This document shows positions 1,765 through 33,895 of a stretch of DNA of 64,000 nucleotides, piece by piece (position 1 is the first letter of the stretch; each line of letters starts with the position of its first letter). The stretch is taken from positions 8,246,001 to 8,310,000 of the forward strand of contig NZ_JADBEK010000001.1 of assembly GCF_014873145.1 (NCBI RefSeq), read 5' to 3'. The notes beneath the pieces were generated by a model. It saw nothing but the letters and a program-made list of their open reading frames with translations. It did not search any database and was not told the DNA's origin. This DNA comes from Nonomuraea angiospora. Its GTDB lineage: Bacteria > Actinomycetota > Actinomycetes > Streptosporangiales > Streptosporangiaceae. Made by a program: the position numbers and the translations under genes.

Positions 1765-4056
1765 CTATTGTGCGGTGATCACCCCGGTTGGTGAAATCGT
1801 GACCGGAACTCCGTTGAACACTGCGTTACCACTCAGTACGTCGATGGTGGATTCGTCCGTGAGCGTGTTGACGCTGACCCCCGCGTGCTCGGCCGCCACG
1901 CTCTGTGAGCTGCCCGCGTGGCCCCAGCCGTGCGGCAGGCTGACCACGCCCGGCATGATCGTGTCGGTGGGTTCGAGCGGCACCGTGAGCTGCCCCTTCG
2001 CGGAGCGGACCACCGCCTCGCCGTCGAGCCCGAGCCTGGTCACGTCGGCCGGGTTGATCTGCAGGGTGCAGGTGTTGCTGCCGCCGACCAGCGGGCCCAC
2101 GTTGTGCAGCCAGCTGTTGTTGGAGCGCAGGTGGCGCCGCCCGATCAGGACGATCTCCGGCGGGTCCTCCTCCAGCCTGCCGCGCAGCCGTTCCACGTCC
2201 TCGATGATCTGCGGCGGCGCCAGCTCGATCAGGCCCGAGGCCGTCTTCAGCACCTCGCCGAGCCGGGGCTCCAGCGGGCCGAGGTCCAGGCCGTGCGGGT
2301 GGTCGAGCAGCTTGCGCAGCGACAGGTCGCCCTTGCCGGCCCACTCGCCGTAGGGGCCGAGCTTGAGCATGAGGTCCAGCCGGCGCTCGCCGCCCGTCTC
2401 GCCCTCCAGCTCGGCGCGCAGCCCGGCCACGTCCCGCCCCTCGACCCCGGAGCCGGGCGTCTCGGTGGCCTTGCGCAGCATCTCGCCGATCACGAACTCG
2501 TCCAGGTCCCCCTCCAGGCCCGAGGCGATCATGGCCAGCCTGGCCAGGATCTGGGCCTCGGAGGGCCGCCCGTCCAGCGGCAGCAGCGGCGGCGAGTAGC
2601 GGGCGTAGTTGCGGACCGCGAACCCGAGCAGCGCGAAGTCGTAGTGGCCCGACTGCAGCATCCGCGGCGGCGGGAGGATGACGTTCGCGTGCCTGGTGGT
2701 CTCGTTGAGGTACGGGTCCACGCTCACCATGAAGTCGAGCCGCCCGAAGGCCGCGTCGAGCCTGGCCCCGTGGGGCGCCGACAGCACGGGGTTGCCCGCC
2801 ACCGTGATCAGGAACGTGACCTGCCCCTCGCCGGGCGTCTCGATCTCGTCGGCGAGCGTGGCCACCGGCAGCTCGCCGTTGCTCTCCGGCAACCCTCTGA
2901 CGCGGCTCCTCCACCTGCCCACCTGGTACGGCCGCGTGTTCATGGCCTCACTTCGTGAGGCGGGCTCGGTCGCCCGGATGCCGCCGCCTTCCCCCGCTCT
3001 GGTCGCTTCGCTCCCGCCGCTCCTCCAGGCGGCGGCACTCCCTCGCCGCGCGCCGAACTCGGTCGCGGGCTTGGGGAACATGGCGCCGCCCGGCCGGTCG
3101 AGGTTGCCGGTGAGCACGTTGAGGACGTCCACGAGCCACTGCGCCAGCGTGCCGAACTCGGCCGTGCAGGTGCCGATCCTGGCGTAGACGGCGGCCGTAC
3201 GGGCTCCCGCCAGCTCCCTGGCCAGCCGCACGATCACCTCGGCGGGCACGCCGGTGCGCCCGGAGACCGCCTCCGGCGGGAAGTGCTTGGCCGCCTCGCG
3301 CACCTCGGCGACCCCGTTGACCTGGTGCGACAGTGTCACGAGGTCCTCGGCGAACAACGTGTGGACGATCCCGAACAGCAAGTAGGCGTCCGTCCCCGGG
3401 CGGACGAAGACGTGCTCGTCGGCCAGCGCGGCGGTGCGCGTACGCCGCGGGTCGACCACGACGAGCCGGCCGCCGCGGCCGCGCAGGGCCTTCAGCCGCC
3501 CGGGGAAGTCCGGCGCCGTGCAGAGCGAGCCGTTGGACTCCAGCGGGTTGGCCCCGAGCATCAGCAGGTAGTCGGTCCTGTCCAGGTCGGGGACCGGGAT
3601 GGCCAGCGGGTGCCCGAACATGAGCCCGCTCGCGACGTGCTTGGGCATCTGGTCGGCGGTGCTGGCGGAGTAGACGTTGCGGGTGCCGAGCGCCTTGATC
3701 AGGGGCGCGCCGTACAGGGCGCCCGCCATGCTGTGGGCGTTCGGGTTGCCGAGGTAGATCGCGGCGGACCGGCGGTCGGCGACCCGGTCGAGGCCCTCCT
3801 TGACGGCGGCGAACGCCTCCTCCCAGCCGACCTCGCGCCACAGGTCGCCCTCCCTGATCAGCGGCTTGCGCAGCCGGTCGGGGTCCTCGTCGAGCCGGCC
3901 GAGGCTGGCCCCCTTCGGGCAGATGAACCCCTTGCTGAACGGATCGTCCTTGTCACCGCGGACGCTGGTCACGTGCCCGCCCTCGTCGAGGGTGAGCGTC
4001 AGGCCGCAGACGGCCTCGCAGAGGGGACAGGTCCGGTGGACGGTCGACGTCATCAC
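1765..4056 (-). CDS. Molybdopterin-dependent oxidoreductase (formate dehydrogenase/nitrate reductase-like) with an in-frame repeat insertion
   Basis: 763 residues. The N-terminus carries a 4Fe-4S motif (CPLCEAVCG, then ICPKG), followed by the molybdopterin oxidoreductase fold and a C-terminal molydopterin-dinucleotide-binding domain (SNNSWLHN, LPHGWGH). It is probably cytoplasmic, since no Tat signal is visible. Residues about 337-374 are unusual: rich in Gly, Arg, Ser and Glu and ending EAMNTR. They are encoded by an in-frame copy of the dispersed structured repeat (2936-3046) seen three more times in this window. The segment falls between the conserved NLDRPGGAMF and GRWRSRVRGLPE motifs, a likely surface loop. 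Whether the enzyme is still active is unknown. Confidence 0.85.
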   Translation of the reverse strand: MMTSTVHRTCPLCEAVCGLTLTLDEGGHVTSVRGDKDDPFSKGFICPKGASLGRLDEDPDRLRKPLIREGDLWREVGWEEAFAAVKEGLDRVADRRSAAIYLGNPNAHSMAGALYGAPLIKALGTRNVYSASTADQMPKHVASGLMFGHPLAIPVPDLDRTDYLLMLGANPLESNGSLCTAPDFPGRLKALRGRGGRLVVVDPRRTRTAALADEHVFVRPGTDAYLLFGIVHTLFAEDLVTLSHQVNGVAEVREAAKHFPPEAVSGRTGVPAEVIVRLARELAGARTAAVYARIGTCTAEFGTLAQWLVDVLNVLTGNLDRPGGAMFPKPATEFGARRGSAAAWRSGGSEATRAGEGGGIRATEPASRSEAMNTRPYQVGRWRSRVRGLPESNGELPVATLADEIETPGEGQVTFLITVAGNPVLSAPHGARLDAAFGRLDFMVSVDPYLNETTRHANVILPPPRMLQSGHYDFALLGFAVRNYARYSPPLLPLDGRPSEAQILARLAMIASGLEGDLDEFVIGEMLRKATETPGSGVEGRDVAGLRAELEGETGGERRLDLMLKLGPYGEWAGKGDLSLRKLLDHPHGLDLGPLEPRLGEVLKTASGLIELAPPQIIEDVERLRGRLEEDPPEIVLIGRRHLRSNNSWLHNVGPLVGGSNTCTLQINPADVTRLGLDGEAVVRSAKGQLTVPLEPTDTIMPGVVSLPHGWGHAGSSQSVAAEHAGVSVNTLTDESTIDVLSGNAVFNGVPVTISPTGVITAQ
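2936..3046 (-). repeat. Structured dispersed repeat, copy 1 (inside a coding sequence)
   Basis: 111 bp, minus strand. The left stem arm GCCGCCGCCT pairs with AGGCGGCGGC. An inner GGGAGC-GAA-GCGACC hairpin follows, then a terminal hairpin GCCTCAC-GAA-GTGAGGC, then C and ATGAACAC. It lacks short segments (4 bp and about 3 bp) present in the other copies. It is read in frame by the molybdopterin oxidoreductase gene on the same strand. Confidence 0.85.
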
Positions 4057-7747: not shown

Positions 7748-9163
7748 TCAGGCGCGGGCCGGCACGCGGCGTCGTACGAGGAAGAGCGAGCTCAGCCCCG
7801 CGACCACGGCGAGGCCCGCCATGGCGATGGAGGAGACCAGCGAGGCGGACACCGTGCCGTGGCCCTGGCTCAGCGTGATGAACAGCGTTCCGACCGTGGA
7901 GACGCCGATCACCTGGCCGAGCTGCATCACGGTGAGCAGCGCGCCGCTCGCGTCCGCCGCGTAGGCGTCGTCGACCTGCTCGGTCGCCATGTTCGTCACC
8001 GCGACCTGCACGCCGAGCCCGGCGCCGACGAGGGCGCTCATGACCGCGTACGGGAGGCCGCCGCCGGCGGCGAGGCCCAGTCCGAGGTAGGCGGGCGCGG
8101 CCACCACGTAGCCGAAGGGCACCAGCGGGCGCTGCAGGCGGAGCGGCAGGCGCGGCCAGAGGAGCCCGACGAGGCCGAAGGCCAGCGCGCACGGCACCAG
8201 CATCATGCCGGAGGCCAGCGGCGTCAGGTGCAGCTCACCCTGCAGGTGCAGGGCCGAGGTGAACAGGAACGCGCCCCAGGTCGCCGGGCCGAACAGCAGG
8301 ATCGCCAGCCCCGGCCGCATGCCGGGCGCGCGCAGCACCCGCGCGTCCACCAGGGGACGCCCGCCGCGGGCCGTCACCCAGCGCTCGATGCGGACGAACG
8401 CGAAGAACGTCACCACGCTCAGCGCCATCGAGATCCAGCCCCACGCCGGCCAGCCGAGCTCGCGGCCCAGGACCAGCGGCACGACGAGCAGGAGCACGGC
8501 CGCGGACAGGGACACCAGGCCCCACGGGTCGAGGCCCGTCCGGCCTCCGCCCTGGTCGGCGGGCAGCACCTTCATCCCGGCCGCCAGCAGCAGCGCGCCG
8601 ATCGGCACCAGCACCAGGAACACCACGCGCCAGCCCGCGCCGAGGCCCAGCAGGATCCCGCCGAAAGCCTGGCCGATCACGATGCCACCGCTGATCACCA
8701 GCGACCACAGACCCATCGCCCGGCCTCGGGCCGCGCCGTGGTAGTTGCGCTGGATCAACGTCAGGACCTGCGGCATCATCATCGCCGCCCCGGCGCCCTG
8801 CAGCAGGCGGGCGGCCACCAGCCAGCCCGTCGAGGGCGCCAGGCCCGCGCCGAGCGTGGTCACCGTGAACAGCGCCAGCCCGCCCAAGAACGCGTTGCGG
8901 TAGCCGAACAGGTCGCCGACCCTGGCTCCGGTGATCAACAGGACGGCATAGACAATGGTGTATCCGGCGACGATCATCTGCAGCCCGGCGCCTGAGGAGT
9001 GCAGGTCGGACTCGATGGTCGGGGTGGCCACGTTGACGATGTTGACGTTCAGGATGGCCAGGAACTGCCCCACGAGGATGATCGCAAGGAGCAGGCCGCT
9101 GGCCCGGGTCCCTTCCTGTGGTTTGGTGTCCACAGAGGGGGAAATAGCGGCAGTTTGCGTCAT
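7748..9163 (-). CDS. MFS transporter, DHA2 family drug exporter
   Basis: 471 residues, about 14 hydrophobic segments. The frame extends back to 9208, but MTQTAAIS (9163) leaves room for the operator region and gives normal family length. Motif A-like GARVGDLFGYRN and motif C-like GGIVIGQAFGGILLG support proton-driven drug efflux of the EmrB/QacA type. It is divergent from a MerR-unrelated HTH regulator at 9258, and the shared 94-bp gap carries inverted repeats, so the regulator probably controls it. Substrate unknown. Confidence 0.85.
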   Translation of the reverse strand: MTQTAAISPSVDTKPQEGTRASGLLLAIILVGQFLAILNVNIVNVATPTIESDLHSSGAGLQMIVAGYTIVYAVLLITGARVGDLFGYRNAFLGGLALFTVTTLGAGLAPSTGWLVAARLLQGAGAAMMMPQVLTLIQRNYHGAARGRAMGLWSLVISGGIVIGQAFGGILLGLGAGWRVVFLVLVPIGALLLAAGMKVLPADQGGGRTGLDPWGLVSLSAAVLLLVVPLVLGRELGWPAWGWISMALSVVTFFAFVRIERWVTARGGRPLVDARVLRAPGMRPGLAILLFGPATWGAFLFTSALHLQGELHLTPLASGMMLVPCALAFGLVGLLWPRLPLRLQRPLVPFGYVVAAPAYLGLGLAAGGGLPYAVMSALVGAGLGVQVAVTNMATEQVDDAYAADASGALLTVMQLGQVIGVSTVGTLFITLSQGHGTVSASLVSSIAMAGLAVVAGLSSLFLVRRRVPARA

Positions 9164-26936: not shown

Positions 26937-27616
<680 letters not shown>

Positions 27617-27620
27617 GGCC

Positions 27621-27738
27621 GCGAGGGAGCGCCGCCGCCTGGACTGAGGAGCGCAGGGAGCGAAGCGACCGGAGCGACGAGGGAAGGCGGCGGCACGAAG
27701 GCGACCGAGCGCGCCGAACGGAGTGAGGCCATGAACAC
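27621..27738 (+). repeat. Structured dispersed repeat, copy 2
   Basis: 118 bp filling the gap between the ABC ATPase and permease genes. Long stem GCCGCCGCCT / AGGCGGCGGC; inner GGGAGC-GAA-GCGACC; the terminal hairpin is decayed. It ends in GGAGTGAGGCCATGAACAC, whose ATG is the start of the permease. Confidence 0.88.
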
Positions 27739-28915
27739 AGGTGAGGCGCTGGCGATGGCGCTCGAAGCGCTGCGGGTGAACCGGCTGCGCAGCGCGCTGA
27801 CCATGCTGGGCGTGATCATCGGCGTGCTGGCCGTGGTGATCCTGGTGGCCATCGGCACGGGGGCGAAGGACGAGATCGAGAAGCAGATCTCGGGCCTCGG
27901 CACGAACATCATCCTCGTCGTCCCCGGCCGCATCAGCCTCGGCGCCGCCCCGACACAGAGCAAGCTGGGCCTGGCCGACGTCGCCTACCTGCGGCGCGTG
28001 GTGGGCGACCCGTCGAAGGTGACGGTCTCGCTGCAGTCGGGCGAGACCGTACGCGTCGGCCGGGCCGAGGCGTTCGTCACGGTGATCGGCACCGACCAGA
28101 ACCTCGTCAACATCTTCGACCGCCCCCTGGACAAGGGCCGTCCGCTGAGCGAGACCGACGTGGACACCCGGCGCAGGGTGGCGGTGCTCGGCTCGGAGGT
28201 GGCCGACCGGCTGTTCGGCGACCTGGACCCGATCGGGCGGCAGGTGACGGTGGCCGGGGCCAGGTTCCGGGTGGTGGGCGTGTACGCCGAGATCGGGCAG
28301 ACGTTCGGGCTCTCGCGCGACCAGGAGATCCACATCCCGGTGACGACGGCGCAGCGGCTGCTCGGGATCGAGCGGATCAACGGGCTGGCGGTCGGCGCGT
28401 CCGGGCCCGACGAGATCGATCCGCTGTCGGAGAAGGTGACCGCGGCGCTGCGGGCGCGGTATCCGGGCGAGCAGTTCTCGGCGGTCACGCAGACCGCGCT
28501 GCTCGGCACGATCGGCAGCGTGCTCGGCATGCTCACCGGCGTGCTGGCCGCCATCGCGGGCATCTCGCTGCTGGTCGGCGGCGTGGGCGTGTCGAACATC
28601 ATGCTGGTCAGCGTCCGCGAGCGCACCCGGGAGATCGGGCTGCGCAAGGCGCTGGGGGCCAGGCAGCGCGACATCCTGGCCCAGTTCCTCATCGAGGCGG
28701 TGCTGCTGACCACGATCGGCGGGCTCGCCGGGATCGTGCTCGGGGTGGGCGGCGCGCTGGGCATCGCGGCGTTCACCGAGGTGCCGGCGTCGATCACGTG
28801 GTGGTCGATCGCGCTGGCGTTCGGGGTGTCGGCGGTGGTCGGGGTGTTCTTCGGCGTGGCGCCGGCGCGGAGGGCGGGCCGGCTGGACCCCGTGGTCGCC
28901 CTCCGTGCCGAGTGA
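27731..28915 (+). CDS. ABC transporter permease (MacB/FtsX type)
   Basis: 394 residues. One TM helix near residue 20-45 (TMLGVIIGVLAVVILVAIG), a large extracellular MacB_PCD domain, then three C-terminal helices of the FtsX fold (SLLVGGVGVSNIMLVSVRERTREIGLRKALGA marks the start, given here in part as GGVGVSNIML and REIGLRKALGA). The start codon and ribosome-binding site GGAGTGAGG lie inside repeat copy 2, so the repeat provides the translation start. Works with the adaptor and ATPase. Confidence 0.9.
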   Translation: MNTGEALAMALEALRVNRLRSALTMLGVIIGVLAVVILVAIGTGAKDEIEKQISGLGTNIILVVPGRISLGAAPTQSKLGLADVAYLRRVVGDPSKVTVSLQSGETVRVGRAEAFVTVIGTDQNLVNIFDRPLDKGRPLSETDVDTRRRVAVLGSEVADRLFGDLDPIGRQVTVAGARFRVVGVYAEIGQTFGLSRDQEIHIPVTTAQRLLGIERINGLAVGASGPDEIDPLSEKVTAALRARYPGEQFSAVTQTALLGTIGSVLGMLTGVLAAIAGISLLVGGVGVSNIMLVSVRERTREIGLRKALGARQRDILAQFLIEAVLLTTIGGLAGIVLGVGGALGIAAFTEVPASITWWSIALAFGVSAVVGVFFGVAPARRAGRLDPVVALRAE

Positions 28916-28917
28916 TC

Positions 28918-29658
28918 TCAGGCGTCCCGCTTCTGCATCAGGACGGCCCCCGCGATCATGGCGATCACGACCCAGGCGAGGTAGACGCCGAGCCCGTCCC
29001 ACGGGCCGAGCGAGCTGCCGCCCCGGGGCATCACGATCTGGGAGCCCGCGTTGGTGGTGAAGTAGTCGGACACGGTCTTGCCCCACTGGCCGGGCAGCAT
29101 GGTCGTCACCTGCGGCAGGACCAGCATCAGCGCGATGGCCGAGACGATCGCGCCGGGCGTGTGCCGGACGAGCGTGCCCAGCCCCAGCCCGAACAGCCCG
29201 CACGCGGTCAGGTAGAGGCCGCCCCCGAGCACGGCCTGCGCCACCTGGCCCGTCTCCAGCGACAGCGGCTGGGTGACCATCAGGCTGACGAGGAGCGAGG
29301 CCGCCGAGGCGACCGTGGTGACGACCAGGGACACTGCCGTGAACACCACGATCTTGCCGGTCAGCAGGCTCATGCGCTTGGGCACGGCCATCAGCGACGT
29401 GCGGATGCCGCCCGTGCGGTATTCGCTGGAGATGACCAGCACGCCCAGCGTGGCCATGGACACCGAGGCGAACATGGTGCCGACCAGCCCCATCATGATC
29501 GCCGCCGATGCGGGGATCGGCCCGTCGCCCGAGTTCTTCGCGGCCACGCTCATGAGCGTGGCCATGCCCAGCATCAGCAGCGCGGTGATGGCCAGCGTCC
29601 ACACCGTGGAGCGGACCGAGCGGATCTTGGTCCATTCGGACCTGAGGATGTCGATCAT
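28918..29658 (-). CDS. ABC-2 type permease
   Basis: 246 residues from MIDILRSEWTKIRSVRSTVW, a start typical of actinobacterial ABC-2 permeases. Six hydrophobic segments. The start overlaps the stop of its ATPase gene by 4 bp (ATGA). It ends 2 bp from the convergent MacB permease. Together with the ATPase it forms an exporter, probably controlled by the neighbouring two-component system. Confidence 0.88.
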   Translation of the reverse strand: MIDILRSEWTKIRSVRSTVWTLAITALLMLGMATLMSVAAKNSGDGPIPASAAIMMGLVGTMFASVSMATLGVLVISSEYRTGGIRTSLMAVPKRMSLLTGKIVVFTAVSLVVTTVASAASLLVSLMVTQPLSLETGQVAQAVLGGGLYLTACGLFGLGLGTLVRHTPGAIVSAIALMLVLPQVTTMLPGQWGKTVSDYFTTNAGSQIVMPRGGSSLGPWDGLGVYLAWVVIAMIAGAVLMQKRDA

Positions 29659-30545
29659 GACGAGAACTCCAGGCTGTCCTTGGTGAGCTCCATGTAGGCC
29701 GCTTCGAGCGAGGGCTGCACGAACGTCAGCTCCTCCAGCGGGATGCCGGCCCGCGCGGTGACGGTGCCGATCTCGAGCGTGCTCATCGCGGTCACGCGCA
29801 GGTGGTCGGGGTGCAGCTCGCCGACCTTGACCAGCTCGGCCACCTCGGCCAGGCGGGGCGAGCGGACCCGTACGTACCCCTGCGAGCTGCGCCCGATGAA
29901 CTCCTGCACGCTCGTGTCGGCGATGAGCCGCCCCCTGCCGATCACGATCAGGTGGTCGGCCGTCTGCGCCATCTCGCTCATGAGGTGGCTGGAGACGAAC
30001 ACGGTCCTGCCCTCGGCGGCCAGCTTGCGCATGAACGTGCGGATCCACAGGATGCCGTCCGGGTCGAGCCCGTTGACCGGCTCGTCGAAGATCAGGATCT
30101 CCGGGTCGCCGAGCAGCGCCGCGGCGATGCCCAGCCGCTGCGACATGCCCAGCGAGAAGCCGCCGACCCGCCGCCTGGCCACCTCGCGCAGGCCCACCGC
30201 CTCCAGCACCTCGTTGACGCGGCTCGCGGGGATGCCGTTGCTCTGCGCGATGGCCAGCAGGTGGTTGTGCGCGCTGCGCCCGCCGTGCACGGCCTTGGCG
30301 TCCAGCAGCGCGCCCACCTTGCGCAGCGGATGTCTCAGCTCCCCGTACGACCGGCCGTCCACGAGCACCGAGCCGCCGGAAGGCCGGTCGAGCCCGAGGA
30401 TCATGCGCATGGTCGTCGATTTGCCGGCCCCGTTCGGCCCCAGGAAGCCGGTCACCTGGCCCGGCTCGACGTCGAAGGACAGGTCTGAGACGGCCGCGGT
30501 GCCGCCGTAGCGCTTGCTCAGGTTCGTGGCTCGTATCGCGCTCAT
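29655..30545 (-). CDS. ABC transporter ATPase
   Basis: 296 residues. Walker A GPNGAGKST, signature LGMSQRLGIAAALLG, Walker B ILIFDEPVNGLDPDG, H-loop SSHLMSEMA; C-terminal extension of the drug-exporter (CcmA/NatA) type. Coupled to the ABC-2 permease. The response-regulator gene lies 80 bp away on the same strand. Confidence 0.93.
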   Translation of the reverse strand: MSAIRATNLSKRYGGTAAVSDLSFDVEPGQVTGFLGPNGAGKSTTMRMILGLDRPSGGSVLVDGRSYGELRHPLRKVGALLDAKAVHGGRSAHNHLLAIAQSNGIPASRVNEVLEAVGLREVARRRVGGFSLGMSQRLGIAAALLGDPEILIFDEPVNGLDPDGILWIRTFMRKLAAEGRTVFVSSHLMSEMAQTADHLIVIGRGRLIADTSVQEFIGRSSQGYVRVRSPRLAEVAELVKVGELHPDHLRVTAMSTLEIGTVTARAGIPLEELTFVQPSLEAAYMELTKDSLEFSS

Positions 30546-30625
30546 GATCCCAGCGTGCCGTCGCCCGCGCCCGGTTTCCTCCTGCCCGGGAACCGTCTGC
30601 GGCGAGGGGGTCTGGGAGCGTGGTC

Positions 30626-31282
30626 CTACTCTCCTGGGCGGATCAGCGCCGCCTCATATGCCACGATCACGGCCTGCGCCCGGTCCCTGACGCCGATCTT
30701 GGCGAACAGGCTCGTCACGTGGTTCTTGACGGTCGAGGGGGAGACGGACAGGCCCTGGGCGATCTCGGAGTTGGACCTGCCGCGGGCGATCAGCACGAGG
30801 ACCTCCCGCTCGCGATCGGTCAGCCCGTCCAGCTCGGCGGGGACCGGCCTCGGCCGGGACGCGTGGACGAACGTGCCGATCAAGCGGGTCAGCAGGCGCG
30901 GCGCGACGGCCGACTCGCCCCGGTGCACCACGCGTACGCCCTCGATGAGCTCCTCGGGGGAGACGTCCTTGGGCAGGAACCCGCCGGCGCCCGCCCTGAG
31001 CGCCGCGACCACGTTCTCGTCCAGGTCGAACGTGCTCAGCGCGAGCACCCGCACCTCCGGCAGCTCCGCGGTGATCAGCTCGGTCGCGCGCACCCCGTCG
31101 AGGCCCGGCATGTGCAGGTCCATCAGCACCACGTCGGGCCGCAGCCGTCGGCACAGCTCCACCGCCTCGGCCCCGTCCGCGGCCTCGCCGACCACGCCGA
31201 GGTCGGGCTGCGCGTCGAGCATCAGCCGGAAGCCCTTGCGGACCAGCTCGTGGTCGTCGGCCAGCAGTACCTTGATCTTCAC
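30626..31282 (-). CDS. NarL/FixJ-type response regulator
   Basis: 218 residues, GTG start overlapping the kinase stop (GTGA). Receiver domain with acidic pocket LLADDHELVRKG and phospho-acceptor region VVLMDLHMPGLDG; C-terminal LuxR HTH (LTDREREVLVLIARGRSNSE). It pairs with the kinase upstream and probably regulates the adjacent ABC-2 exporter. Confidence 0.93.
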   Translation of the reverse strand: MKIKVLLADDHELVRKGFRLMLDAQPDLGVVGEAADGAEAVELCRRLRPDVVLMDLHMPGLDGVRATELITAELPEVRVLALSTFDLDENVVAALRAGAGGFLPKDVSPEELIEGVRVVHRGESAVAPRLLTRLIGTFVHASRPRPVPAELDGLTDREREVLVLIARGRSNSEIAQGLSVSPSTVKNHVTSLFAKIGVRDRAQAVIVAYEAALIRPGE

Positions 31283-32400
31283 GGCGTCTCCAGGGGGATG
31301 CGGGCGTGCACGCGGAAGCCTCCTTCTGGGCGGGGCCCGGTCGAGAGCTGGCCGCCGCATAACGCCACCCGCTCGGCCATGCCGCCCAGCCCGAAGCCCG
31401 GCGTGCCGCCGCCGGCCGCCAGTCCGTCGTCCACCACCTCGACCTCCACGGCCCGGGGCTCGTACACCAGCCGCACGCTCGCCCTGGCGCTGGTCGCGTG
31501 CTTGCGGGTGTTGGTCAGCGCCTCCTGCACGATCCGGTAGACGGCGTGGTCGACGGTCGCGGGCAGGGCGACGGGCTCACCCGTCACGACCAGGATGGCG
31601 GGCAGCCCCGCCGACTTCGCCTCCTTGATCAAGGAGGGTAGCCGGTCCGCTCCCACCCCCGTCGCGGCGTCCGGGCCCTCGCTGCCGTCGGCCCTGAGCA
31701 CGTCCAGCAGGCGGCGCATCTCCGACATCGCCTGCCGGGCGGTCTGCTCGGCGCTCTCCAGCGCGTTCCTGGTGACCTCCTGCTCGGGCGGCAGCGTCGC
31801 CCGCGCGCCGCCGACCAGGGCGTTGATGACGGTGATGTGGTGGGCGACCACGTCGTGCAGCTCCCTGGCGATGCGCCGCCGCTCGGCGTGCACGGCCGCG
31901 TCGGCGGCCTCGCGCCGGCCGCGCTCGGCGAGCTCGGTCCTGAGCCGGACGATCAGCCCGATCCCCACGGGCACGCCGACGGAGAACAGGGAGATCACCC
32001 AGCCGCCGGTGAGCTGCCTGAGCACTTCCGCCGCCGTCGAATACCCGGCGAACACCGCCACCGTCGCGATCGCGGTCGTGCGGCCGGCGGTGTAGCGGCC
32101 CACGCTGTAGAGCGCGATGGACGAGGCCACGCCGGTGTTCAGGGACGTTCCGGTCGCGATGCTCACGACGTCCACCACGGTCACCAGGGCGACGGTGAGG
32201 AGCGGCCTGCGGCGGCGCATGAGCAGGAGCGGCATGCCCGCCAGGTAGGACGCCACGCCCCGGACGGTTTCCAGGTCGCCCCGGGGCAGCGTGTAGAGCA
32301 GCGCGATCAGACCGGGAAGGGAGAGCACCACCACCAGCGTCGTGTCGAAGACCCTGGGACGTCTGAAGAAGCGCACGATCTTGAGGAAGGTTCGCCGCAC
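31279..32400 (-). CDS. Membrane sensor histidine kinase (HisKA_3/NarX type)
   Basis: 373 residues from GTG (a TTG 6 bp earlier is possible). A TAGTGT -10-like element lies 7 nt ahead, hinting at a leaderless transcript. Several hydrophobic helices fill about 15-165, then a coiled linker. The phospho-acceptor His is in RRRIARELHDVVAHH. The ATPase part has NTRKHATSA and GFGLGGMAERV. No large extracellular sensor domain, so it probably senses within the membrane. Confidence 0.9.
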   Translation of the reverse strand: MRRTFLKIVRFFRRPRVFDTTLVVVLSLPGLIALLYTLPRGDLETVRGVASYLAGMPLLLMRRRRPLLTVALVTVVDVVSIATGTSLNTGVASSIALYSVGRYTAGRTTAIATVAVFAGYSTAAEVLRQLTGGWVISLFSVGVPVGIGLIVRLRTELAERGRREAADAAVHAERRRIARELHDVVAHHITVINALVGGARATLPPEQEVTRNALESAEQTARQAMSEMRRLLDVLRADGSEGPDAATGVGADRLPSLIKEAKSAGLPAILVVTGEPVALPATVDHAVYRIVQEALTNTRKHATSARASVRLVYEPRAVEVEVVDDGLAAGGGTPGFGLGGMAERVALCGGQLSTGPRPEGGFRVHARIPLETP

Positions 32401-32482
32401 GCTCAAGACACTAAGTCACGAAATTTGCGGATCACTGCCTACAGCGACGCGTCTGCGCTGCGGTAACGTCGGCCCCTAGGAT

Positions 32483-32600
32483 GCGAGGGAGCGCCGTCGC
32501 CTGGACTGAGGAGCGGCGGGAGCGCAGCGACCAGAGCGACGAGGGAAGGCGACGGCTCCCCAGCGACCGAGCCGCCTCCACGAAGTGGAGGCCATGAACA
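32483..32600 (+). repeat. Structured dispersed repeat, copy 3 (tandem with copy 4)
   Basis: 118 bp. Long stem GCCGTCGCCT / AGGCGACGGC; inner GGGAGC-GCA-GCGACC; terminal hairpin GCCTCCAC-GAA-GTGGAGGC; ends in ATGAACA, after which the frame stops at once (AGG TGA). One base separates it from copy 4. Confidence 0.9.
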
Positions 32601-32601
32601 G

Positions 32602-32720
32602 GTGAGGGAGCGCCGTTGCCTGGACTGAGGAGTGGCGGGAGCGCAGCGACCAGAGCGACGAGGGAAGGCAACGGCTCGGAGCGACCGAGCCCGCCTCTGC
32701 GGAGCAGAGGCCATGAACAC
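32602..32720 (+). repeat. Structured dispersed repeat, copy 4
   Basis: 119 bp. Long stem GCCGTTGCCT / AGGCAACGGC; inner GGGAGC-GCA-GCGACC; terminal hairpin GCCTCTGC-GGA-GCAGAGGC; ends in ATGAACAC 12 bp before the acuC ATG, in another frame. Confidence 0.9.
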
Positions 32721-32731
32721 GAGGGGTTGGG

Positions 32732-33895
32732 ATGAGCCGGTCGGCGCGGGTGATCTGGGACGACGCTCTCACCTCCTACAACTTCGGCCCGAGCCACCCG
32801 CTCGCCCCCGTGCGCGTCGAGCTGACCATGGCGCTCGCCCGCTCGCTCGGCGTGCTCGACAAGGTCGAGCTGGCCGGCTGCGAGCCCGCGACGGACGCCG
32901 AGCTGGCCATGGTCCACACGAGCGGCTACATCGAGGCGGTCAAGCGCGTCTCCGCCGCCGGGCGGCCCGACCTCGCCGCCGGGCTCGGCACGTCGGACAA
33001 CCCCGCGTTCCAGGGCGTGCACGAAGCCTCCGCGCTGATCGCCGGCGCCTCACTGGCCGCCGCCCGCGCGGTCTGGGAGGGGACGGCCGAGCACGCGGTC
33101 AACGTCGCGGGCGGCCTGCACCACGCGATGGCGGCCTCGGCCAGCGGCTTCTGCGTCTACAACGACCCAGCGCTGGCCATCGCGTGGCTGCTCAGGCAGG
33201 GGGCCGGCCGGATCGCGTACGTGGACGTGGACGTCCACCACGGCGACGGTGTCCAGGCTGCCTTCTACGACGACCCCAGGGTCCTGACGATCAGCCTGCA
33301 CGAGAGCCCGCGCACGCTGTTCCCCGGCACCGGCTTCCCGGAGGAGACAGGGGCGGAGGGCACGTCCGTCAACGTCGCCCTCCCGGCGGGGACCGGCGAC
33401 TCGGGGTGGCTGCGGGCCTTCCACGCGGTCGTGCCGCCGCTGCTGCGCGAGTTCAGGCCGGAGATCCTGGTCACCCAGCACGGCTGCGACAGCCACGCGC
33501 TCGACCCCCTGGCCAACCTGATGCTCAGCGTCGACGGCCAGCGGGCCGCGTACGCCGCCCTGCACCGCCTGGCCCACGAGTGCGCCGGCGGCCGGTGGAT
33601 CGCCACCGGCGGCGGCGGTTACGAGCTGGTGCAGGTGGTGCCGCGGGCGTGGACCCACCTCATCGCCGAGCTGGCCGGTCATCCGGTCGATCCGGCCACG
33701 CCGACGAGCGAGAGCTGGCGCCAGTTCGTCAGGGAACGTACGGGCGAGACGCCACCGCTCACGATGACCGATGGTCGCAATCCGGAATTTCGTGACATCT
33801 CCGGTGGTTATGACCCAGCGGACCCCATTGACCGTGCTGTCATGGCGACCCGACATGCGGTGTTCCCCCTGCACGGCCTCGATCCGATGCCCTAA
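32732..33895 (+). CDS. acuC: Histone-deacetylase-family protein (AcuC)
   Basis: 387 residues. Class I HDAC-like fold: active-site GGLHHAM, zinc-ligand region YVDVDVHHGDGVQ, later Asp in TQHGCDSH, and the GGGGYE motif. AcuC in Bacillus deacetylates acetyl-CoA synthetase. The ATG lies 12 bp past repeat copy 4, with AGGGGTTGGG as a weak ribosome-binding site. A phosphatase-like gene follows. Confidence 0.9.
   Translation: MSRSARVIWDDALTSYNFGPSHPLAPVRVELTMALARSLGVLDKVELAGCEPATDAELAMVHTSGYIEAVKRVSAAGRPDLAAGLGTSDNPAFQGVHEASALIAGASLAAARAVWEGTAEHAVNVAGGLHHAMAASASGFCVYNDPALAIAWLLRQGAGRIAYVDVDVHHGDGVQAAFYDDPRVLTISLHESPRTLFPGTGFPEETGAEGTSVNVALPAGTGDSGWLRAFHAVVPPLLREFRPEILVTQHGCDSHALDPLANLMLSVDGQRAAYAALHRLAHECAGGRWIATGGGGYELVQVVPRAWTHLIAELAGHPVDPATPTSESWRQFVRERTGETPPLTMTDGRNPEFRDISGGYDPADPIDRAVMATRHAVFPLHGLDPMP

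Follow-up and report, generated by a model that had tools for sequence, protein, structure and literature searches.

Four structured repeats in a 64,000-nucleotide (nt) stretch of the Nonomuraea angiospora genome (hereafter the window, G000:C1:8246001-8310000; the source genome, G000, is a single contig of 13.09 Mb) are probably members of a two-hairpin family of non-autonomous, protein-less mobile elements, ~110-120 nt in length and similar to the mycobacterial interspersed repetitive units (MIRUs); in our best reading, this MIRU-like family is new. The copies have been inserted, being missing from orthologous sites in relatives, and one strand only of the element is selected to fold. All four are present where the first-pass annotation of the window had put them, with ends shifted by 1-2 nt: copy 1 at 2937-3046 on the minus strand (a short variant of 110 nt) and, on the plus strand, copy 2 at 27621-27737 and the two units of a tandem array, copy 3 at 32483-32600 and copy 4 at 32602-32719. 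A covariance model (R1), built from 13 source-genome copies, two of them window copies, detected exactly these four places and nothing else in the window at E ≤ 1e-4, and Rfam at gathering score gave no match within it.

Copies are missing from orthologous sites in relatives

Copy 1 lies inside a molybdopterin oxidoreductase open reading frame (ORF; 1765-4056, minus strand; Pfam PF00384/PF01568/PF04879), to which it adds 108 nt (36 codons) in frame, the ORF remaining open through the element; two empty orthologous sites (L229 and L240) are shorter by 108 nt. Copy 2 is situated between an ABC-transporter ATPase gene, whose stop TGA is at 27614-27616, and a MacB/FtsX-type permease gene, whose predicted start codon is the ATG in the tail of the element (27731, plus strand). 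At the empty sites of L171, L173 and L179, this ABC-transporter junction is a start/stop overlap, RTGA, while in the source genome the element stands between GTGA and an in-frame ATGA start; two relatives (L172 and L183) and genome G022 also hold elements at the junction. Copies 3 and 4 form part of the leader of a histone-deacetylase-domain gene (32732-33895); this leader is short and lacks the element in nine relatives, and G022 (L169) carries one copy versus two in the source genome.

The joined flanks of 19 loci, including copy 1, were searched against five relatives (L004, of the 24 source-genome copies, was left out). At least 16 of the 19 sites had a match crossing the join in at least one relative, among the matches listed; these matches were of different length at L003, L005, L006, L008 and L018, and L001, L013 and L019 had no join-crossing match among those listed for the five relatives. 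Twenty such places were fetched and aligned. Ten loci were cleanly empty in a relative (L002, L007, L009, L010, L012, L014, L015, L016, L017 and copy 1), the rest of the places being remnants, shortened copies (L234, L237) or unclear junctions (L231, L233, L235, L239), with L236 and L238 holding copies. The shortened copies, both in G022, lack the main hairpin or its 5' part where the source genome has a full element. Among the roles initially proposed for the repeats, that of a mobile unit was therefore the right one, empty orthologous sites having been found.

Architecture of the element

RNA folds and alignments place the parts of the element in the order outer helix, variable stem, inner helix, core, terminal hairpin and tail (5' to 3'). 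The outer helix pairs GC[GA]GG[GA]GC with GC[GA]CC[GA]GC, bracketed pairs being tandem G-A mismatches; the second module is a 10-bp stem whose sequence varies between copies; the inner helix pairs CT[GA]G[GA]GC with GC[GA]C[GA]GG; the core reads GG[GA]GC-GNA-GC[GA]CC; and a terminal hairpin with a GNA loop is followed by the tail CATNARYAS (CATRARCAS in the anatomy reading). In copy 2, all on the plus strand, the outer G-A helix is formed by 27621-27630 (GCGAGGGAGC) and 27701-27710 (GCGACCGAGC), the variable Watson-Crick stem by 27631-27640 and 27685-27694, and the inner tandem-G-A helix (CTGAGGAGC/GCGACGAGG) spans 27644-27682 around the core GGGAGC-GAA-GCGACC (27656-27670). The terminal hairpin (27713-27729; GCC-GA-AC-GGA-GT-GA-GGC, with a GNA loop and tandem G-A) leads directly into the tail CATGAACA (27730-27737). 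The two ends of the element, GYGAGG and CATRARCAS, do not form an inverted repeat, which rules out a miniature inverted-repeat transposable element (MITE) with terminal inverted repeats; a doubling of RTGA is shown below for Kribbella. The ending ATGAACA, initially ascribed to all copies, holds in the window but not in the rest of the genome, where ATAAGCA, ATGAGCA, ATAGACA and others occur.

The GNA core loop described in the first-pass annotation was confirmed for 108 of the 120 cores, and the terminal loop is likewise GNA in 102 of 120 cases, plus two GNNA. In the source genome, the GNA core loop is fixed by the search pattern itself; among 86 distinct copies not found by the core pattern, 76 still have it, although these came from a model that was built on pattern-found copies. 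The G-A modules can be exchanged: in other genera the outer G-A helix is fully Watson-Crick (for example, GCTTGGCCGC with GCGGCCAAGC), and at L008 in the source genome the inner G-A modules are also swapped for Watson-Crick pairs.

Several rearranged copies were seen. In L251, L253 and L254 the core is swapped for another hairpin (CGAGGAACGAG type), again with tandem G-A around a GAA loop, and in a Nonomuraea indica contig (L039:3093-3420) the core segment is expanded to five tandem repeats with 28-bp spacing beside a full element. In the source genome, L006 from 377 on consists of a full copy directly followed by a second one reduced to linker and terminal hairpin, and the upstream flank of L001 looks like a degenerate copy.

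Covariation is strand-specific

Searching 77 loci gave 94 matches, of which 88 were distinct. Across these, 96.9% of cells at nominal pairs do pair, both partners vary in 23 of 32 pairs, and the covariation score reaches 0.352 versus 0.118 in shuffles and ≤0.079 in slid structures, in alignments that were fitted to R1 and are hence biased towards the model. Kribbella copies alone, aligned in the same way, gave 98.3% pairing cells, both-sided changes in 15 of 32 pairs and a score of 0.233 versus 0.079 (slid ≤0.052). Swaps between tandem G-A and Watson-Crick pairs are also seen in the raw, unfitted sequences. The covariation first noticed in the long stem and terminal hairpin is thus borne out, and its excess over shuffles supports the view, voiced at the time, that it implies selection on folding.

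Non-canonical combinations at the nominal pairs are strongly biased towards one strand, with G-T outnumbering A-C by 134 to 8 and G-A outnumbering C-T by 50 to 0 (52 versus 5 and 5 versus 2, respectively, in Kribbella). With RNA parameters, the top strand gave a better fold than the complementary strand in 88 of 88 copies, and with DNA parameters in 86 of 88 (32 of 32 and 31 of 32, respectively, in Kribbella). Biased pairs and better top-strand folding together indicate that a single strand is selected, and not a double-stranded cruciform; the latter was rejected on the strand-specific pairing, which also makes the protein-binding cruciform suggested earlier unlikely.

Kribbella copies occupy start/stop overlaps, antisense to the operon

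Of 32 Kribbella copies, 24 have an opposite-strand gene on either side and none is flanked by two sense genes, the remaining 8 having other or missing neighbours. After three partial matches among the 32 were left out, TCAY (RTGA reversed) was found at the left end of 28 of 29 copies and in the right flank of 22 of 29, against a background of 4.6%. The left TCAY pairs with an internal RTGA in the outer stem (TCAC with GTGA in 4 of 4 cases, TCAT mostly with ATGA). Joined flanks with a single TCAY were prepared for 12 sites chosen for TCAY on both sides; they match other Kribbella genomes, many without a gap, and one RTGA stands at the junction in 12 of 12 fetched empty sites (the flank match of L331 is weak, 42/60). 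The Kribbella element is inserted where the stop of one gene overlaps the start of the next, and RTGA is then found on both sides. Since the fold keeps its strand bias although it lies antisense to the operon, it does not serve the host mRNA there.

At four Kribbella rubisoli loci (L272, L336, L339, L346), one copy sits inside the core loop of a second, and the outer stems read GTCCTGGGG or GCCCTGGGG in place of GTCAYGGGG.

Placement outside Kribbella

The gene neighbourhoods of 68 non-Kribbella arrays, 65 in Streptosporangiaceae and 3 in other families, were read with a simple gene caller. Flanking genes were ++ relative to the element in 41 arrays, -- in 9, +- in 10 and -+ in 8, so that among the 50 co-directional arrays 41 are sense and 9 antisense. 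The claim that all copies run in the sense of the gene they touch thus holds for the window but not elsewhere, as L007 is antisense in the source genome and Kribbella reverses the orientation; L007 lies within a reading frame that is open through the element. Start/stop-overlap sites were seen at copy 2, L012 and L017.

Distribution of the family

The core GGGAGCGNAGCGACC occurs 24 times in the source genome versus once for the reversed control; when read out, all 24 hits lie in element copies, L004 with divergent outer arms. Arrays vary in tandem copy number, with four units in L147, for example. A covariance-model search of the genome and its relatives, as suggested in the first-pass annotation, yielded 31 R1 matches in the source genome. 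Within the genus, 39 of 54 genomes had matches, and copy numbers ranged from 0 to 51 (E ≤ 0.001 for the source genome and the genus). At E ≤ 1e-4, matches were found in 99 of 200 genomes of the family, covering 37 of 68 genera, and in 20 of the 394 genomes searched across the class, of which three lie outside this family. With 68, 18 and 9 candidates scored per genome in the genus, family and class searches, respectively, and with stricter filters, these counts are lower bounds. Carriers include Nonomuraea rhizosphaerae, N. indica, two Acrocarpospora, Thermocatellispora tengchongensis, Kribbella soli and K. rubisoli, the last with 37 copies (E ≤ 0.01); one Mycobacterium metagenome-assembled genome and one Nocardia genome searched alongside it had no copies, and plasmid and phage collections queried with copies 3 and 4 gave no match.

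Run over the contigs of many genomes, the core pattern proved too loose (at least 116 stretches), and 91 of the 116 were scanned with R1. This gave 12 matches at E ≤ 0.1, of which convincing ones were confined to Nonomuraea, Acrocarpospora, Thermocatellispora and Kribbella, with L067 cut by a contig end. Other repeat families, in Enhygromyxa salina (L034, L046) and a Betaproteobacteria assembly (L024), share the GGGAGCGNAGCGACC core but not the remaining element. Among the papers listed in literature searches, none describes this repeat family by its title or abstract, which is weak evidence of absence.

A separate observation in the window is a tRNA-Ala (TGC) of 83 nt called by ARAGORN at 8273-8355 on the minus strand, amid long ORFs; its odd length and place make it possibly spurious.

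Relationship to MIRUs

MIRU loci are the basis of mycobacterial variable-number tandem-repeat typing. With a core pattern that we take to be that of MIRUs, matches were found in 29 of 60 genomes of the genus of one Mycobacterium record, the reversed control giving none. The copies are arranged in tandem at 50-55 bp, are mostly flanked by RTGA, and lie between two sense genes at 16 of 20 loci. Their core folds by the same scheme as that of the present family. From the alignment, 6 of the 44 distinct copies were dropped for their longer or divergent arms (L280, L293, L311, L313, L314, L319), and two more were set aside as duplicates. Core columns are partly invariant by construction, the copies having been found by their core; tandem G-A modules outside the search pattern are conserved in 36-37 of 38 copies, and the outer stem shows modest covariation (4 of 12 pairs; 0.131 versus 0.091 in shuffles and ≤0.071 in slid structures).

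The likeness could, with a chance only slightly short of even, reflect convergence, with unrelated repeats settling in the same type of site. Neither covariance model significantly detects the other family: R1 on MIRUs gave E values of 0.08-5.5, and the MIRU model on this family gave core-only local matches at E of 1.2-7.4, no better than unrelated places in the window. The strand order of the inner helix is, moreover, swapped between the two families. Against convergence stand the same core, the same tandem habit and the same RTGA target, as well as a sub-threshold R1 match that falls on the MIRU itself and on its strand at 19 of 20 loci, a count that is partly circular, given that loci were chosen by a core-like pattern. 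With the inner helix swapped and cross-detection not significant, common descent with MIRUs is no more than possible. We tentatively suggest, while considering it rather doubtful, that MIRUs and the two-hairpin elements form one actinomycete superfamily, which would propagate in the form of folded single-stranded DNA (stabilised by GNA mini-hairpins together with sheared tandem G-A pairs) through a trans-acting enzyme that is neither Y1_Tnp nor element-encoded, and would target RTGA overlaps in an orientation set by lineage.

Possible routes of spread

Selection during spread best explains the fold, because the same fold and strand bias persist antisense to the Kribbella operon. The folded strand would be recognised by a trans-acting enzyme, placing the fold under selection, and the propagated form is most likely single-stranded DNA, given that the loops conform to the GNA rule for DNA mini-hairpins and that which strand folds does not depend on the way transcription runs. 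The tetranucleotides at the flanks, with their complement inside the element, are reminiscent of single-strand transposition of the IS200/IS605 type. As doubling of RTGA would spare both the stop of the upstream gene and the start of the downstream one, such insertions may be tolerated. Extraordinarily stable DNA mini-hairpins have been described as obeying a GNA loop rule with at least two G-C pairs (PMC4686876), and the core of the element follows this two-G-C rule.

Several observations weigh against this reading. In the terminal hairpin, the closing C-G is often the sole G-C pair, the second pair being A-T in 46 of 88 copies. RNA z-scores (-2.4 to -6.3, six copies) are clearer than DNA z-scores (-4.5 to +1.1), so that folding by itself cannot point to DNA. 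DTGA occurs ≤10 nt upstream of only 19 of 101 non-tandem Streptosporangiaceae copies, against a background of 5.1% (the count skips 11 tandem followers and the element's own GTGA start); no strong target motif and no conserved tetranucleotide were found beside copies in this family, and some empty sites (L014, L016) are without RTGA. No moving enzyme was found, and Y1_Tnp is lacking where copies abound. Within the genus, copy number correlates with the number of Y1 genes (rho 0.42, p = 0.0017; presence/presence, Fisher p = 0.010; not kinship-corrected), which points either to a connection with Y1 elements or to a host trait common to both.

Spread through an RNA intermediate, in which top-strand RNA would be recognised by a reverse transcriptase in trans, in the manner of a short interspersed nuclear element, is unlikely but the best surviving of the other routes. 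It would account for the strand-specific fold with its many G-U pairs, for RNA fold scores better than those for DNA, and for insertions that are mostly gene-sense in Streptosporangiaceae and MIRUs. However, the shortened or internally deleted copies (L234, L237, L183) sit where a relative has a full copy, no 5'-truncated new insertion was seen among the sites compared, and the target doubling in Kribbella is short and regular.

Mobilisation of repetitive extragenic palindromic (REP)-type elements by a resident Y1 transposase (TnpA-REP/IS200-like) appears quite improbable. One-strand hairpins with a tetranucleotide on both sides, in Kribbella and MIRUs, do resemble what we take to be single-strand transposition, and the Y1 count tracks copy number in the genus, as given above. 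Nevertheless, Y1_Tnp (PF01797) had no match in K. rubisoli despite its 37 copies (completeness of that assembly not being stated), in 7 of 10 MIRU-rich genomes or in 10 of 39 element-bearing same-genus genomes. The source genome has two Y1 genes, with TnpB-like ORFs as neighbours and no element copy nearby, which we presume to be IS605-type pairs. The REP/TnpA-REP version of the first-pass annotation accordingly finds no support either in these two Y1 genes or in K. rubisoli.

Least probable of these is a cis-acting leader that is maintained because it influences the adjacent gene, through translation control or mRNA stability. In its favour, 13 of 68 arrays supply the predicted start codon through their tail ATG, and MIRUs have been located in mapped 5' untranslated regions (PMC4128351). 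Yet relatives exist without the copy, and in Kribbella the top strand retains the fold bias even though the copies lie antisense to the operon; translation control, as once proposed, is at most a by-product.

Recognition of a folded single strand during spread remains our preferred explanation. This family of soil actinomycetes, whose empty and filled sites are plentiful, whose fold is strand-specific and which shares the MIRU target, offers a tractable system for the mechanism, in which the Kribbella copies separate the role of the fold in propagation from any role in host mRNA.

Comparison with known systems

Non-autonomous elements derived from IS200/IS605 share with this family a folded top strand, a tetranucleotide on both sides (TCAY in Kribbella, RTGA in MIRUs) and, for TCAY, an internal complement in the outer stem of the element. 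They differ in that no transposase was found for the present family and no tetranucleotide is conserved beside the Streptosporangiaceae copies.

REPs and their TnpA-REP transposases (REP-associated tyrosine transposases, RAYT) are similar in having short hairpins, one selected strand and many copies. REPs have been described as carrying a GTAG or CGTC tag (PMC3733652); neither tag was seen at the ends of the element, no Y1 gene lies near the source-genome copies, and none is required elsewhere. Rickettsia palindromic elements (RPE), reported to be ~100-150 bp in length, with a long stem-loop and in-frame insertion in protein genes (PMC2229807), and other bacterial MITEs with ORFs are matched in size, in the long stem-loop and in the in-frame insertion of copy 1; in-frame read-through of this coding-palindrome kind was also found at L002 and L003. 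The present family is set apart from both by ends that are not inverted copies, by its conserved tandem-G-A/GNA architecture and by the overlap target in Kribbella.

MIRUs belong to a described stem-loop family of Mycobacterium tuberculosis (PMC2267715) and have been placed at start codons in a recent review which, in the part consulted here, says on their mobility only that they 'appear to be mobile' (PMC12548453). Unlike MIRUs, the element is about twice as long, with the outer helix, terminal hairpin and tail CATNARYAS as extra parts; the strands of its inner G-A helix are swapped; and many Streptosporangiaceae sites are not RTGA. Nor does it keep to the orientation of the adjacent genes, given 9 antisense cases among 50 co-directional arrays and the 24 antisense and 0 sense copies in Kribbella. 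Like MIRUs, however, it is a short, non-coding and protein-less repeat, both dispersed and in tandem, mostly sense in Streptosporangiaceae as MIRUs are in mycobacteria, with start/stop overlaps as targets of a part of its copies (those in Kribbella; copy 2, L012 and L017) and a core of the form GA-GC-GNA-GC-GA accompanied by further tandem G-A modules.

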